Assembly: GCF_025567045.1 (NCBI RefSeq)
Contig: NZ_JAOQJK010000003.1
Span: forward strand, 310,001-374,000
Reading direction: 5' to 3'
DNA length: 64,000 nt
From: Barnesiella propionica
Lineage (GTDB): Bacteria; Bacteroidota; Bacteroidia; Bacteroidales; Barnesiellaceae
Below the pieces are notes generated by a model. The model was not told the DNA's origin. It saw only the letters and a list, made by a program, of their open reading frames with translations, and did no database searches. This document shows positions 30,286 to 45,491 of the stretch, piece after piece (positions within the stretch are counted from its first letter, which is position 1; the number at the start of each line of letters is the position of its first letter). The translations under genes and the position numbers were made by a program.

Positions 30286-30660
30286 ATGGATGATAAAAGA
30301 AAAATCAAGGCGAGAGGCAGACCGAAAGCAAGCAGCCTCCGCAAACTGACGAAGTCGGTAACGATGAAATTCTCCAAGCCCGACTATGAGCAACTTCTCC
30401 GCAGAAGCAGGCAAGCCAACAGAACACTTGCCGAGTACATAAGGAATTCCGCATTTGAAGCCCAAGTCGTAGCCAAGCATTCAACGGAGGAAGCCACCAC
30501 CATGCGTAACCTTGTGGGAATGGCGAACAACCTGAATCAGCTTACCAAACTGTCGCATCAAATGGGATTCTATAGAACGAAGAATGTCATTATGGAACTG
30601 CTTGAGAAACTCAAGTCCATAATGAATGACTATAAAACTAAAGAAAGGAGGGCAAGATGA
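30286..30660 (+). CDS. mobC: Mobilization accessory protein MobC
   Basis: The 124-residue product resembles the MobC relaxosome proteins that bind oriT and help the relaxase. A basic start (KRKIKARGRPKASSLRKL) leads into a ribbon-helix-helix-like segment (SVTMKFSKPDYEQLLRRSRQ), then ANRTLAEYIRNSAFE and the conserved MANNLNQLTKLSHQMGF. It looks intact, unlike the genes around it. Its stop overlaps the relaxase start by 4 bp (ATGA). With the relaxase destroyed it can hardly support transfer unless a relaxase is supplied in trans. Confidence 0.85.
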   Translation: MDDKRKIKARGRPKASSLRKLTKSVTMKFSKPDYEQLLRRSRQANRTLAEYIRNSAFEAQVVAKHSTEEATTMRNLVGMANNLNQLTKLSHQMGFYRTKNVIMELLEKLKSIMNDYKTKERRAR

Positions 30661-30962
30661 TAGGCAAGATTAAGAAGGGGCAGACTTTCGGCGGTTGCAT
30701 ACGCTATGTAATGGGTAAGGGCAATGCTCAATTAAGTTGGAATAAGCCAGAAATGGAGCCGAAATTTGAGCCTAAAAAGCCAAGACAAAAGCAAGCGGAA
30801 TCTCAAATTCAGTCCTATAAACCGTCAGGCAACGACCTAATTGAAGAAGGTTTGGGCTTGTTCACTCCGTCTGAGAGCAATCCGCAGGAAGAGCAGATTC
30901 CTTATGATGAGCTTCTCCGCAGACAGATGAAGAAAAAGAAACGCAAAGGCAGAGGATTATAA
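30657..30962 (+). pseudogene. Relaxase remnant with a large internal deletion
   Basis: The 101-residue frame joins the first about 25 residues of a Bacteroides MobB-type relaxase (MIGKIKKGQTFGGCIRYVMG) directly to a Lys/Pro-rich relaxase C-terminus (LLRRQMKKKKRKGRGL). Relaxases of this family are usually several hundred residues long. The catalytic centre, including the three-His metal motif, should lie in the missing middle. The deletion left the frame open, so a short peptide may still be made, but it cannot nick DNA. Confidence 0.75.
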
Positions 30963-31014: not shown

Positions 31015-31862
31015 ATGAAAAATGACGATTTCATGGAAAGCATCTTCGGATGCTTGAAGAGAATCGAGGACAAGGTAAACGGACTCTCCACCCCTCAAAT
31101 GGTAAACGGAACTACCGAAGTAGATAACAGTGCAAATGAAGCAGCTTTGCAGGAGGTAAGACAGGATTTGAACAGCGTTAAAACAGCGTTCAATCGTGTT
31201 TATGAGGGTCTTGCGGCAGTTAAGTTTGATACAGCAAAATTGTTGGAAAGAAACTCTATGTCGGGCAAGTTTATGGAAGCCCTGTCCATCTTGAAAAGTG
31301 AACAGCAGGAAAATTATAAGAGACAGAGTGAGTTGCTGGAGCAATTTGCCAACGCAGAGACAGATACGATGCAGAAAATATCGGAGATGATGGAATCACT
31401 TTCCACTTCTGTAAGGAACAGAATGAGCAATCCCGATATTGTTAATCATAAGTATAGTTTCAGCATTGAATCTCCTTACATGTTTGAAGGCTTTCGTGGA
31501 ATATTTGCCCTTATTGTTGTTCTGGCTGTAGCATTATATATTGCCAAACAGCCCGATTATGACCGCATAGACAACGATTTGAAATACCGCTACATCAAAA
31601 TGAAAGGCGAAGCATCGCCAAAATAGATTAGAGAGCTTGAAACCTCTTTGAACTGAATCGTGACAATGTCAAGATTAAGCAGATGGGTGAGAATGTAGAA
31701 GCATACGAAGATGCAGTTCAGAAGCAAGCAGCCCTTGCAGAGCAGGCACGTCTGAAAGAACAGGCTGCAAAGGAGTTGGACAACAAGGCGAAGTCCATAA
31801 AGGGCAAGCCCATTCAAACGGACAAACCAAAAGAAGTGAGCCTATGGCAAGTATCAAAGTAA
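31015..31862 (+). pseudogene. Mobilizable-element membrane protein, broken by a stop and a frameshift
   Basis: An open frame of 203 residues (31015-31626) has a coiled-coil-like N-terminal half and one membrane helix (GIFALIVVLAVALYIAKQ). It stops at TAG after GEASPK. Beyond the stop the same protein continues: IRELET in frame, then, after one missing base near 31648, LFELNRDNVKIKQMGENVEA and QAALAEQARLKEQAAKELDN to a stop at 31860-31862, overlapping the recombinase start. I infer a gene of about 280 codons interrupted by one nonsense change and one single-base deletion. The 203-residue part could still be produced. Function of the family is unknown to me. Confidence 0.7.
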
Positions 31863-33043
31863 AATTTAGACCTTTTACAACCGCAGGCAAGGAAGGTGTA
31901 ATCTATTATCAAATCATACAGAATCATGTAATCCGTCAGTTAAAGACGGATTACCGAATCTTTGAGGATGAATGGAACGTGAAAAATGGAATTGTTATTG
32001 TTTTGCCTAACAACAGAAATAACTATCTACAATCTATCACAGAACGTATTGAATGGGATATAAAGCGTTTGGAATCAATTATATCTCAATTGGAGAATAA
32101 GCGAATCAAGTATTCGGCTGATGATATTGTTTCCTCTTTTCAGAATCAAGCACACGAGCAATCCCTATTCAATTTCATGCGTGGAATTATAGCCCAGTTA
32201 AAGCAGATGGGCAAACATCGCACATCCGAAACTTATCGGGCTACGCTCAAAAGTTTCATGCAGTTCCGAGAGGATAAAGACCTTTTGTTGGATGAAATCA
32301 ATTCAGAAATGATGTTGATGTACGAGGCTTATTTACGGAACAAAGGAATCACAAAGAATAGTAGCTCATTCTATATGCGGATATTGAGAGCCGTATATAA
32401 TAGAGCCGTTGAAAAGGAACTGACAAAACAAAAGTTTCCGTTCAAACATGTATATACAGGGATTGACAAGACTGTAAAGAGAGCAGTATCGTTAAAGGTT
32501 GTCAAAAGGATTAAAGAAATTGATTTGTCGCTTAATCAATCAGCCGACTTTGCAAGAGATATGTTTCTCTTTTCTTTCTACACTCGTGGAATGTCGTTCA
32601 TTGATATGGCATACTTGAAAAAGAAAGACCTTACAAACGGCATACTCATATACCGTCGCCGAAAGACAGGACAGCAACTTTTCATCAAGTGGGAGAAATG
32701 TATGCAGGAAATTGTAGATAAGTATGATACAATGGGTAATATCTATCTGCTTCCAATTATAAAAACCCCCAATGTGAATGAAAGAAAGCAGTATGAAAAT
32801 ACTCTTCGTTTGGTTAATAATAAGCTGAAATTTATAGCAGATATTATTCACTTGCAGATACCATTATCAACCTATGTGGCTCGACATACATGGGCAAGTA
32901 TAGCCAAAAGCATGAACATTCCTATTTCGGTTATCAGTGAGGGAATGGGACATGATTCAGAAACAACAACTCAGATTTATTTATCTTCTTTGGATACTTC
33001 TGCTATTGATAAAGCAAATGAGTTGATATTAAAAGGGCTATAG
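31844..33043 (+). CDS. Tyrosine recombinase (integrase/invertase family)
   Basis: The 399-residue product has an N-terminal arm-type domain (KVKFRPFTTAGKEGVIYYQI), a SAM-like core-binding domain (about 110-210), and a catalytic domain. Catalytic positions can be matched to the first Arg in YTRGMSFIDM, the Lys in YRRRKTGQQ, the second Arg in TYVARHTWAS, the His in GMGHDS, and the Tyr nucleophile in QIYLSS. The usual HxxR is YVAR here, as I recall for Bacteroidetes members. It is intact. It ends 23 bp before a pair of perfect 19-bp inverted repeats, so it may be the enzyme that flips them; alternatively it is the integrase of the decayed mobile element. Confidence 0.92.
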   Translation: MASIKVKFRPFTTAGKEGVIYYQIIQNHVIRQLKTDYRIFEDEWNVKNGIVIVLPNNRNNYLQSITERIEWDIKRLESIISQLENKRIKYSADDIVSSFQNQAHEQSLFNFMRGIIAQLKQMGKHRTSETYRATLKSFMQFREDKDLLLDEINSEMMLMYEAYLRNKGITKNSSSFYMRILRAVYNRAVEKELTKQKFPFKHVYTGIDKTVKRAVSLKVVKRIKEIDLSLNQSADFARDMFLFSFYTRGMSFIDMAYLKKKDLTNGILIYRRRKTGQQLFIKWEKCMQEIVDKYDTMGNIYLLPIIKTPNVNERKQYENTLRLVNNKLKFIADIIHLQIPLSTYVARHTWASIAKSMNIPISVISEGMGHDSETTTQIYLSSLDTSAIDKANELILKGL

Positions 33044-33066
33044 AAAATGTTTAGCGACTATAGCTA

Positions 33067-33256
33067 TCTCTTTGTAAGAGACGGACTTACAAAAGCAAAA
33101 TTATGAAAAATATTTCATTACAAAGAATATTTGGCAAAAAAAACTTTTGTATAGTCTGAAAATAATTTGAGAATGTTTACTTAATCCCCTATTTGCAACA
33201 TCTAAATTCTTGATTATAAACAAACTTTTGAGAATAATCCGTCTCTTACAAAGAGA
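33067..33256. promoter_or_regulatory. Candidate invertible promoter segment (19-bp inverted repeats around 152 bp)
   Basis: The left repeat, TCTCTTTGTAAGAGACGGA (33067-33085), is exactly matched in reverse complement at 33238-33256. Each repeat is itself a dyad (TCTCTT, 3-base centre, AAGAGA), the form of a tyrosine-recombinase core site. On the minus strand the enclosed DNA carries TTTG (33124-33121), a 17-base spacer and TAATTTTG (33103-33096), a full Bacteroidetes promoter pointing away from the downstream peptide gene. Flipping would put TAATTTTG at 33220-33227 on the plus strand, about 90 bp before the peptide start. No comparable plus-strand promoter is seen in the present orientation. 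Confidence 0.7.
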
Positions 33257-33319
33257 CAGATAGGAGATACCCGAAAATCCTATAAACAGAGTAGGGCTTA
33301 ATCTATTCAATATTTTATT

Positions 33320-33454
33320 ATGGAAGATTTATTTTCGTGTAAAATGGTTGGAAAGGGAATTTATGAAACCCTCGAAGAACAGTATGATGTTTACACCGTT
33401 GATGATGATTGGTCACGGAAACATGATGCAAGTCCAAAAATCATCAATGATTAA
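33320..33454 (+). CDS. Candidate RiPP precursor peptide (44 residues)
   Basis: This short gene encodes 44 residues beginning MEDLFSCKMVGKGIYETLEE, followed by QYDVYTVDDDWSRKHDASPK and the end IIND. It lies between the invertible segment and the radical SAM maturase gene on the same strand, and is followed by a hairpin with a T-run. That is the usual layout when a precursor must be made in excess of its modifying enzyme. The C-terminal half is rich in aromatic, Asp, Arg and Lys residues; the WSR triplet is the kind of aromatic-x-x unit that cyclophane-forming SPASM enzymes modify. No GG-type cleavage site is obvious. Assignment rests on position, size and partners, not on homology. Confidence 0.6.
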   Translation: MEDLFSCKMVGKGIYETLEEQYDVYTVDDDWSRKHDASPKIIND

Positions 33455-33464
33455 GGTATCAGAA

Positions 33465-33495
33465 AGGCTGTCTTGAATTTGAGGCAGCCTCTTTT
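33465..33495 (+). terminator. Attenuating terminator after the precursor peptide gene
   Basis: AGGCTGTCT and AGGCAGCCT form a 9-bp stem (one T-G pair) around TGAATTTG, followed by CTTTT. Placed between the peptide and maturase genes, it should give many peptide transcripts and fewer full-length ones. Confidence 0.7.
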
Positions 33496-37054: not shown

Positions 37055-38276
37055 TTACATTGCCATTGAAATACCATTAAACGATTGATTAAGCTGATTG
37101 CCGAATACCGTCAAATCCTTGTCAATCTTTTCGGTGGTTACTTTAGCATACTTCTGCGTGGTAACAATATTCGTATGACCTAAAATCTTGCTCACACTCT
37201 CAATCGGCATACCCTTACTTTGTGCAAGGGTAGCGAATGAATGACGACTTGAATGGAATGATATGTCTTTCGTAATTCCGCACTCTTTTATCATAGTTTT
37301 CAATGGCTTACAGATATTCCAATAGTTGAGATTGGGGAATATGAACTTATCCTCCTGGAATGGCTCATAACGCTTTATAATCTGCATAGGAATATCCAAC
37401 AGCTTCACTTGAAACGGCACTTTCGTCTTATGTCGTTTCGACAATATCCATTTCTCGCCGTTCACATCCACAATGTCATCGGTAGTCAGTTCCTTAATAT
37501 CCACAAACGACAAGGCAGTAAAACTTGCGAAAACAAACAAATCACGGATATAAGCCAACTTGCTATTCGCAAACTCATGTGTCATTACAGTCTTGATTTC
37601 ATCTTCCGTAAGGTATATACGGTCTTTTATATTCTGATTGACCCTATATTGTGCAAATGGGTTTCTCGGCGTTTGAACATTGTAATGAGCCTTTGAAACA
37701 ATCGTTTTCAGCCACATACAGTTAGCCCATATACTGCCATTATGAAACCCTGCATCCGTTGATAGATAGATTTCATACTCCTTGATAAAATCGGGAGTAA
37801 GTTCGAGCATAGATATATCATTTCGCTTGTGATTCTTCTTGAAGAAGGATGCCAAATGATTTCTTGCCCTTACTCTGACCTGATAGGAACTCAAAGCACG
37901 GTCAATACCGATACGCTTCTTGAAACTTTCGTTATCCTTATCAAATGCACCGAGCAGGGTTTCATACTCCGTTCCGATGCCCTGATAGGCGTTGCGACCA
38001 TATCAGCCGTAACATACGCCTCCTGTCCGACAGGCGCTGATAGTGCTTGATGATTTGAGCCTTGATATCATCCAATGAGAGGTTAATGTCACGAGCCTCT
38101 TTACTCTTGCCTTTGGCTAGATTGCCCTTTGCATCCCAAAGTTCTTTTAGGATAGAACATTTGCAACTGAATTGGGCTACAGAACCGTTGATTGTCACTC
38201 TTCCCATAATGGGGACAACGCCATTTTTCTCCTTGCTTCCGTTCACGTAGAACAGCACCTTAAATGTACTTCGCAT
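37055..38276 (-). pseudogene. Second tyrosine integrase, broken by two frameshifts
   Basis: The gene starts at 38276 (MRSTFKVLFYVNGSKEKNGV), with an arm-binding domain, and reads to about residue 86 (HYQRLSD). There one base seems missing near 38021, and a second near 37996. After both, the reading frame resumes as YQGIGTEYETLLGAFDKDNE, then SFKKRIGIDRALSSYQVRVR, and continues through the core-binding and catalytic domains (HSSRHSFATLAQSKGMPIES, then GHTNIVTTQKYAKV with the Tyr nucleophile) to a stop at 37055. The intact protein would have been about 405 residues. The catalytic half has no good start of its own, so the gene is probably dead. It marks the right side of the island. Confidence 0.85.
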
Positions 38277-44917: not shown

Positions 44918-44992
44918 ATGTTTCCTACGGGAATTCTTATACAAAATTTCGCTTTTTTATTTTGAAGATAAAAAAATAGTATTACCTTTGCA

Positions 44993-45000
44993 ACGCTTTA
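44993..45000 (+). promoter_or_regulatory. Probable promoter of the tRNA-Val cluster
   Basis: TACCTTTG matches TAnnTTTG and lies 16 bp before the first tRNA. The next TTTG upstream is 28 bp away, longer than standard. Confidence 0.5.
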
Positions 45001-45016
45001 TCGAAAAGATTCTTTC

Positions 45017-45091
45017 GGGCGTTTAGCTCAGCTGGTTCAGAGCATCTGCCTTACAAGCAGAGGGTCGGCGGTTCGAATCCGTCAACGCCCA
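45017..45091 (+). tRNA. tRNA-Val (anticodon TAC), copy 1
   Basis: The 75-nt sequence folds as a full cloverleaf: acceptor GGGCGTT/AACGCCC, anticodon loop CTTACAA with anticodon TAC, T arm GGCGG-TTCGAAT-CCGTC and discriminator A. CCA is not encoded. It is the first of three identical copies. Confidence 0.97.
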
Positions 45092-45147
45092 CTTCCAAAA
45101 ATTACCGAGCGAGGTAATTGATATAGGACATAGAAAACTGATAAAGA

Positions 45148-45222
45148 GGGCGTTTAGCTCAGCTGGTTCAGAGCATCTGCCTTACAAGCAGAGGGTCGGC
45201 GGTTCGAATCCGTCAACGCCCA
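45148..45222 (+). tRNA. tRNA-Val (anticodon TAC), copy 2
   Basis: Identical in all 75 positions to copy 1. The 56-bp spacer before it is unrelated to the other spacer. Confidence 0.97.
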
Positions 45223-45275
45223 CTTCTTTATTTTAATCTATATATATTTCAGAGTATTTCGGTACTCCTCTTTTC

Positions 45276-45350
45276 GGGCGTTTAGCTCAGCTGGTTCAGA
45301 GCATCTGCCTTACAAGCAGAGGGTCGGCGGTTCGAATCCGTCAACGCCCA
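45276..45350 (+). tRNA. tRNA-Val (anticodon TAC), copy 3
   Basis: Identical in all 75 positions to copies 1 and 2. All three are likely processed from one transcript. Confidence 0.97.
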
Positions 45351-45491
45351 CTTTCGAATGGCACTTGTGATTTTCCGCAGGTGTTTTTTAGTTTATCACC
45401 CCCTCCATTCGAGGCCAGAACCAAAATTACTTCGCTTTTCGCTTATATATAATTTTCTTCTTCGGTTCGGGATAATATTAACAAAGGAACT

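Follow-up and report, generated by a model that had tools for sequence, protein, structure and literature searches.

Within a 64,000-nucleotide stretch of the Barnesiella propionica genome (hereafter the window), a tyrosine recombinase gene is followed by a pair of inverted repeats and then by a small operon for a candidate precursor peptide, a radical SAM enzyme and an ABC exporter (Table 1). This arrangement raises the question of whether the operon is controlled by a promoter that the recombinase can invert and, if so, whether its product is a RiPP. The repeat pair stands alone in the window: with up to 3 mismatches allowed, the repeat sequence occurs at 2 sites in the whole 64 kb, against 0.01 expected from shuffles, and the pair is the sole exact inverted pair of at least 14 bp with a 60-500 bp spacer. 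A sequence-only reading of this DNA had described two perfect 19-bp inverted repeats, 152 bp apart and each with an internal dyad, the first lying 23 bp past the stop of an intact tyrosine recombinase gene. Sequence comparison bears out the former point and the coordinates the latter, as the recombinase stop ends at 33043 and the left repeat lies 23 nt further downstream. That the right repeat adjoins the precursor gene also held, although the gap to the ORF start at 33320 is 63 nt rather than the 64 bp given in that reading.

Table 1. Features of the switch, the peptide operon and their surroundings in the window
Feature	Position	Strand	Description or evidence
NikA/MobC-like mobilisation gene	30286-30660		upstream of recombinase
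Truncated relaxase (MobB-type) piece, 101 aa	30657-30962		upstream of recombinase
Further gene in mobilisation group	31015-31626		upstream of recombinase
Tyrosine recombinase, 399 aa, presumed invertase of the switch	31844-33043	+	Pfam domains, conserved residues, repeats behind relatives
Left inverted repeat (recombination site)	33067-33085	+	TCTCTTTGTAAGAGACGGA
Invertible segment	33086-33237	.	152 bp separating both repeats
Bacteroidales-type promoter	33124-33096	-	TTTG-17-TAATTTTG, then C; faces recombinase gene (OFF orientation)
Right inverted repeat	33238-33256	-	exact reverse complement of TCTCTTTGTAAGAGACGGA, 19/19
DUF805b RNA motif (RF02914), 5' leader of peptide gene	33261-33297	+	38.1 bits vs gathering 35.6, E 2.9e-9
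Candidate precursor peptide gene, 44 aa	33320-33454	+	homologue P0122, DUF805b upstream
Attenuator-like hairpin with T-run, in precursor/maturase gap	33465-33490	+	terminator scan, folds
Radical SAM/SPASM peptide maturase, 478 aa	33543-34979	+	Radical_SAM PF04055, 1.1e-16
ABC exporter, 594 aa	34983-36767	+	Pfam/NCBIfam matches
Second tyrosine recombinase/integrase, broken across two reading frames	37055-38276	-	Arm domain apart from catalytic part

The sequence-only reading had further placed a full promoter on the minus strand of the enclosed segment, pointing away from the peptide, and had seen no good promoter on the plus strand; both statements stood. The minus-strand promoter ends 10 bp from the left repeat. 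Counting both strands from 33044 to 33330, an exact TAnnTTTG is found once, in the -7 box of this promoter, and the plus strand contains zero copies. With both strands pooled, the 64 kb contain 5 copies of the full motif (TTTG, 16-20 nt, TAnnTTTG). One of them, at 44961, precedes three tRNA-Val genes (44961-45351), providing a handy positive control for the motif. Since the only promoter of the Bacteroidales consensus near the operon points into the recombinase gene, the operon would be without a promoter of its own in the orientation read, the OFF state. A terminator scan of the plus strand from the recombinase to the precursor gene found none, so that read-through from the recombinase could give basal operon expression in either state.

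The recombinase gene is full length. Its product matches Phage_int_SAM_5 and Arm-DNA-bind_5 above their gathering scores and Phage_integrase (7.5e-5) slightly below, and R248, K274, R347, H370 and Y379, which we take to be the catalytic residues, are present and are kept in at least 97% of 90 aligned recombinases. A protein that differs from it at 1 of 399 residues (P0123) is named 'MAG: tyrosine-type recombinase/integrase [Barnesiella sp.]'; P0123 is found on 3 contigs versus 24 for P0001, clusters and contigs being counted differently in these figures, so that the gap need not mean operons lacking the recombinase. The asnS gene of the window is 75-78% identical to its counterpart in 9 of 9 genomes from the family of Barnesiella sp. 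An22, compared with 65-73% in the other 20 of 22 genomes that were searched through loci.

With the recombinase as query we collected 89 related loci, 9 from the viral collection and the best 80 of 488 from genomes; 8 of them had too little DNA behind the gene, leaving 81 assessable. Inverted repeats 133-173 bp apart lie directly downstream of the recombinase in 71 of these 81 relatives (73/82 rows before the window itself and L012, an artefact of an N run, were set aside). The 99% point of the repeat-pair score in 410 single-base shuffles was 11, and the 10 loci without qualifying repeats were L008, L009, L012 (the N run), L040, L049, L060, L066, L085, L087 and L088. Some of the related loci are near copies of each other, such as L002-L004, and removal of copies at 80% identity left 43 segments, that of the window among them. 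The majority dyad of the left repeats in this non-redundant set, TCTCTTTGTAAGAGA, is the same as the dyad inside the window repeats (TCTCTT-TGT-AAGAGA), with its three middle bases poorly conserved. Exact TAnnTTTG boxes facing outward 5-16 bp inside a repeat give 7 plus-strand and 32 minus-strand hits across the 43 segments, compared with 0.23 and 0.58, respectively, predicted by bins of the same width in the rest of the segments. In the relatives with repeats, the outward box typically lies 7-15 bp inside a repeat.

When boxes matching at 5 of 6 positions were accepted, a threshold at which shuffles were callable in 24.7%, all 72 segments could be assigned an orientation: 59 were OFF, with the box facing the recombinase, and 13 were ON, near copies counted. 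A later search of 10 further genomes retrieved 14 loci from 6 genomes, 12 of which were assessable. A repeat pair with an outward box was found in 11 of these (9 exact, 2 at 5 of 6), the repeat pair being absent from L116; the boxes faced the recombinase in 11/11, of which 8 loci were new and 3 were repeats of earlier ones. The predominance of OFF segments could mean that the switch rarely turns, and the excess of OFF assemblies may point to a costly ON state or to a biased recombinase.

Homologous segments are inverted among the relatives. Among 2556 segment pairs, the match exceeds 70% in direct orientation for 127 pairs and as reverse complements for 28. The segments of L055 and L056 are 100% identical when one is reverse-complemented, as compared to 61% directly, and L037 matches eight other segments at 91-94% reverse-complemented and 58-60% directly. 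On plasmids, the sole difference between 870-bp stretches from Bacteroides fragilis FDAARGOS_1225 (L100) and B. uniformis CL06T06C18 (L101) is an exact 178-bp inversion between repeats of this type; a near-identity search with this stretch gave L101 as the sole two-piece match among 20 plasmid records listed, H33 having a second place as well. These pMMCAT-type plasmid switches (L099-L101) have a recombinase ~54% identical to that of the window, a similar repeat dyad and spacers of 174-179 bp, but differ in their tandem arrangement of two repeat pairs and in their cargo, a UpxY capsule operon. Two successive inverted-repeat pairs are seen behind the recombinase in L098, L099 and L100, and tandem repeat pairs are reported for one switch class in the accessible part of PMC8748976.

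Searches with the window itself returned little. Megablast found no plasmid match to it, scans of genome_contigs and viral_contigs with the window radical SAM enzyme confirmed no relatives, and in viral_contigs a profile scan yielded 3 matches, all partial, at 25-40% identity. The locus had 0 matches in 393 Bacteroidales genomes at E 1e-30, a result of little weight as this search ran without a positive control; in 399 genomes at 1e-50 it had 1 match, with no switch on the 2.8 kb covered.

The operon consists of the short precursor gene, the rSAM/SPASM maturase gene and the ABC exporter gene, in this order. Ahead of it, the DUF805b motif lies 4 nt behind the right repeat and ends 22 nt before the ATG. 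The 44-aa ORF has a sole other homologue, P0122, in a search of 5.8 billion proteins that requires shared 5-residue words; the two are 82% identical over 44 aa, P0122 carrying a 20-aa N-terminal extension. No Pfam or NCBIfam model matches the 44-aa ORF, and no NCBIfam model matches P0122.

The maturase matches SPASM (PF13186) at 0.0021, below the gathering score, and scores below the cut-offs of all 25 listed of 85 NCBIfam maturase families. Assignment as a CbpB (TIGR04163; 157.3 bits vs a cut-off of 375) or PapB (NF047865; 155.2 bits vs 340) equivalog was rejected, the radical SAM core being similar to theirs and the enzyme falling outside both equivalog families. The AlphaFold model has a pLDDT of 81.8, with two stretches of the C-terminal region (413-424 and 430-451) below 50. 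CteB (5wgg), a structure whose title refers to thioether bond formation in sactipeptides, ranks first both by profile search and by the AlphaFold model. The radical SAM core is alike in sequence and fold in CteB, TigE (8vpo) and ChlB (9gm3), and for CteB and TigE the sequence match extends into part of the N-terminal region, but in the Foldseek rows the window maturase is just 18-22% identical to the three. None of the exporter's 15 Pfam matches is to a peptidase family. The product of the operon is most likely an exported RiPP.

The DUF805b motif is frequent in the order, being above the cut-off in 71 of 149 Bacteroidales genomes and in 0 of 14 controls. In 27 of 30 fetched Bacteroidales loci (L125-L154) it lies 18-26 nt upstream of an ATG, as measured from the reported motif coordinates rather than by the strict text pattern; of the remaining three, two had no ORF by the rule used and one failed the motif check. 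The motif therefore looks like a gene-proximal leader element, and its spacing in the window supports the start codon at 33320 and a control exerted in the leader. The genes behind it elsewhere include outer-membrane-like proteins, and by our own reading of the sequences four of them would encode GG-leader peptides (L136, L142, L146 and L152). Since the motif is non-specific for RiPPs, it gives no support for the RiPP class. The window copy, which scores above the Rfam gathering score, differs from the known motif by the invertible-promoter repeat adjoining it.

We also examined what lies behind the related switches. The first listed ORF (at least 60 aa) points outward from the switch in 70 of 71 loci, at a median of 23 nt from the repeat. 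Of the first ORFs, 42 of 68 were scanned against Pfam, and of the second ones 34 of 56, picked by eye with mainly near copies left out. The scans identified ResIII (13), SNF2-related (10), N6_Mtase (4) and Type ISP (3) among the first, and Eco57I (10), ResIII (5) and N6_Mtase (5) among the second, classes overlapping in both sets. PADLOC assigned cargo to restriction-modification, DISARM- and Zorya-type families, many of these being shared-helicase matches. Restriction-modification or helicase-type defence is the commonest other cargo in close relatives, and phase-variable defence may be widespread, with the recombinase-switch module placed before diverse restriction-modification, DISARM-like and helicase-type cassettes (L011-L089). 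The cargo of L001 (7465-13200) comprises a gene that Pfam does not match, a small one, one whose protein has a weak tubulin-like match, and a long one with no match; the first two ORFs of L044 are 66% and 59% identical to those of L001.

Radical SAM peptide-maturase-like cargo is found, besides the window, in L082, L005 and L003/L004, and the order of DUF805b leader, small Cys-rich ORF, hairpin and radical SAM enzyme recurs in L082 and L003/L004. The motif precedes a 39-aa Cys-rich ORF in L082 (10673-10707, 47.9 bits) and a 28-aa one in L004 (10036-10073, 44.4 bits), and is seen by pattern in L003; the hairpins that stand before the maturase in the window, L082 and L004 fold at -15.5, -30.4 and -26.7 kcal/mol, respectively. 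No small ORF is listed before the L005 enzyme, the contig of L002 stops before the maturase position could show, and L040, one of the loci lacking a repeat pair, has a weaker radical SAM match ~7 kb away. As a point against the reading of a switch ahead of a RiPP operon, the peptide genes of L082 and L003/L004 do not adjoin the switch: the distance from switch to DUF805b is 1213 nt in L082 and 2607 nt in L004, with other genes between, whereas the two adjoin in the window. In a pattern test of 69 loci, the window was the sole case with DUF805b <400 nt from the repeat; distances of 400-3000 nt were seen in L003, L004 and L082 and, weakly, in L089. The intervals between switch and motif in L082 and L004 contain no full-consensus promoter, the one type covered by this test, so that the peptide genes there show no sign of a promoter of their own.

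A quick tree places the recombinases of L005, L082 and L002-L004 in one clade with L089, and that of the window elsewhere, beside L010. On this tree the radical SAM cargo label requires 3 changes, possibly a single gain with two losses. In local alignments the window enzyme is 22-29% identical to those of L082, L005, L003 and L004, as compared to up to 37% between L082 and L004; the window operon is thus at most distantly related to theirs.

Among the matches listed, many relatives have homologues of the mobilisation genes ahead of the recombinase gene. The 101-aa relaxase piece aligns with two parts of the relatives' genes, residues 1-26 and a later stretch, and was apparently shortened, judging by this alignment, through an in-frame internal deletion; the frame-split gene beyond the exporter is perhaps the decayed integrase of the element. 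The G+C content is 25-32% across the operon versus 38-46% outside, and no convincing direct repeats were found at the element ends. Taken as a whole, the region resembles an integrative mobilisable element in decay. The truncated mobilisation gene and the frame-split integrase, like the DUF805b leader and the hairpin behind the precursor, were absent from the sequence-only reading.

That reading had proposed an OFF-state, recombinase-worked switch before a modified-peptide operon, and the comparative evidence from relatives supports it. We consider it likely that the locus is an invertible promoter worked by the recombinase, OFF as read, which controls a putative RiPP operon. The invertible promoter appears genuine and very probably active, of a known kind and with an unusual cargo. 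The recombinase would recombine the 19-bp repeats and flip the 152-bp segment, which would bring the promoter to 33199-33227; the -7 box would end 10 bp ahead of the right repeat, at 93 nt upstream of the ATG at 33320. The ON transcript would cross the repeat and DUF805b before reaching the 44-aa precursor, and the hairpin would probably lower read-through, part of the transcription passing on to the maturase and exporter. The repeats, the promoter, the intact recombinase, the gene order, the leader motif and the hairpin are direct observations, as is the inversion of homologous segments in relatives. We infer the flipping of the window copy and its ON state, following the pattern of the family, and also the chemistry and role of the peptide.

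The promoter might be invertible and the operon still not be a RiPP operon, the radical SAM enzyme having another substrate or the 44-aa ORF being untranslated. The lack of a family model for this ORF, the sub-threshold scores of the maturase against every NCBIfam family listed, and the many non-RiPP cargoes behind related switches would all fit such a case, which we nevertheless hold to be unlikely: the ORF has a homologue at 82% identity, the leader motif ends at a distance from its ATG that falls in the range of the 27 other loci, a hairpin separates it from the maturase, and the model of the latter is closest to CteB. Doubt may also fall on the switch itself, which could be a relic with an inactive recombinase or a locked segment, the operon being driven by weak read-through or another promoter. 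The broken mobile genes on either side (30657-30962 and 37055-38276), the 59 OFF-facing segments among 72 and the missing plus-strand terminator ahead of the operon lean in this direction; against it, the recombinase has kept its full length and conserved residues, and both repeats are perfect 19-mers that match the family consensus, and we judge a relic to be quite improbable.

The 190-bp unit resembles a MITE in size and terminal repeats, and might in principle be such an insertion, unrelated to the recombinase. A single copy in 64 kb, a position behind the recombinase that is fixed in 71 of 81 relatives, a conserved outward promoter box and in-place inversion in relatives make this explanation scarcely credible.

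Switches of this kind have precedents. Promoter inversion by local recombinases, which the sequence-only reading had taken as known in Bacteroides, is well known in Bacteroidales: the accessible part of Yan et al. 2022 (PMC8748976) describes an invertase followed by an invertible promoter and varied cargo on mobile elements. As in the window, the promoter there lies directly downstream of the invertase gene and the repeats are similar across classes; the promoter given in that part, -33 TTTG / -7 TANNTTTGY, is matched by the window's TAATTTTGC. The switches covered there differ in carrying antibiotic resistance and glycan synthesis cargo on conjugative elements, whereas in the window a DUF805b-led rSAM/precursor/exporter operon lies beside an apparently degraded mobilisable element. 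Other sources, as far as their accessible text goes, report inverton profiles in gut strains with UpxY, MobC and hsdS neighbours (PMC11892184), phase-variable Bacteroides genes that control capsule, polysaccharide metabolism and restriction-modification systems (PMC11868660), and, in a mention, invertible promoters for methyltransferases (PMC10333322); PMC10773633 and PMC13172255 have no bearing on the question. The words bacteriocin, RiPP, lantibiotic and radical SAM do not occur in the main text of PMC11892184, and a search of the open-access full-text literature, judged by titles and the starts of abstracts, found no paper in which a Bacteroidales RiPP or radical SAM operon stands behind an invertible promoter. 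The suggestion that no Bacteroidales RiPP operon under such a switch has been described thus survived this search, which is not proof of it. The kind of switch is known, and its placement before a RiPP-like operon appears to be new.

We see about an even chance that phase-variable RiPPs are a recurrent cargo in Bacteroidales, in which case a mobile and often defence-bearing switch would have captured peptide operons apparently more than once (in the window and in the clade of L082, L003, L004 and L005), with production by a minority of cells and with RNA-level control of the precursor through DUF805b and an attenuator. The window suggests a possible role of DUF805b leaders for small peptide genes. 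If the proposed switch operates, the peptide production of a culture would depend on the direction of the segment, and a negative product screen may just mean that the switch is OFF; in ON-state cells the product would come to light. RiPPs would then join restriction-modification and capsules as population-hedged traits.
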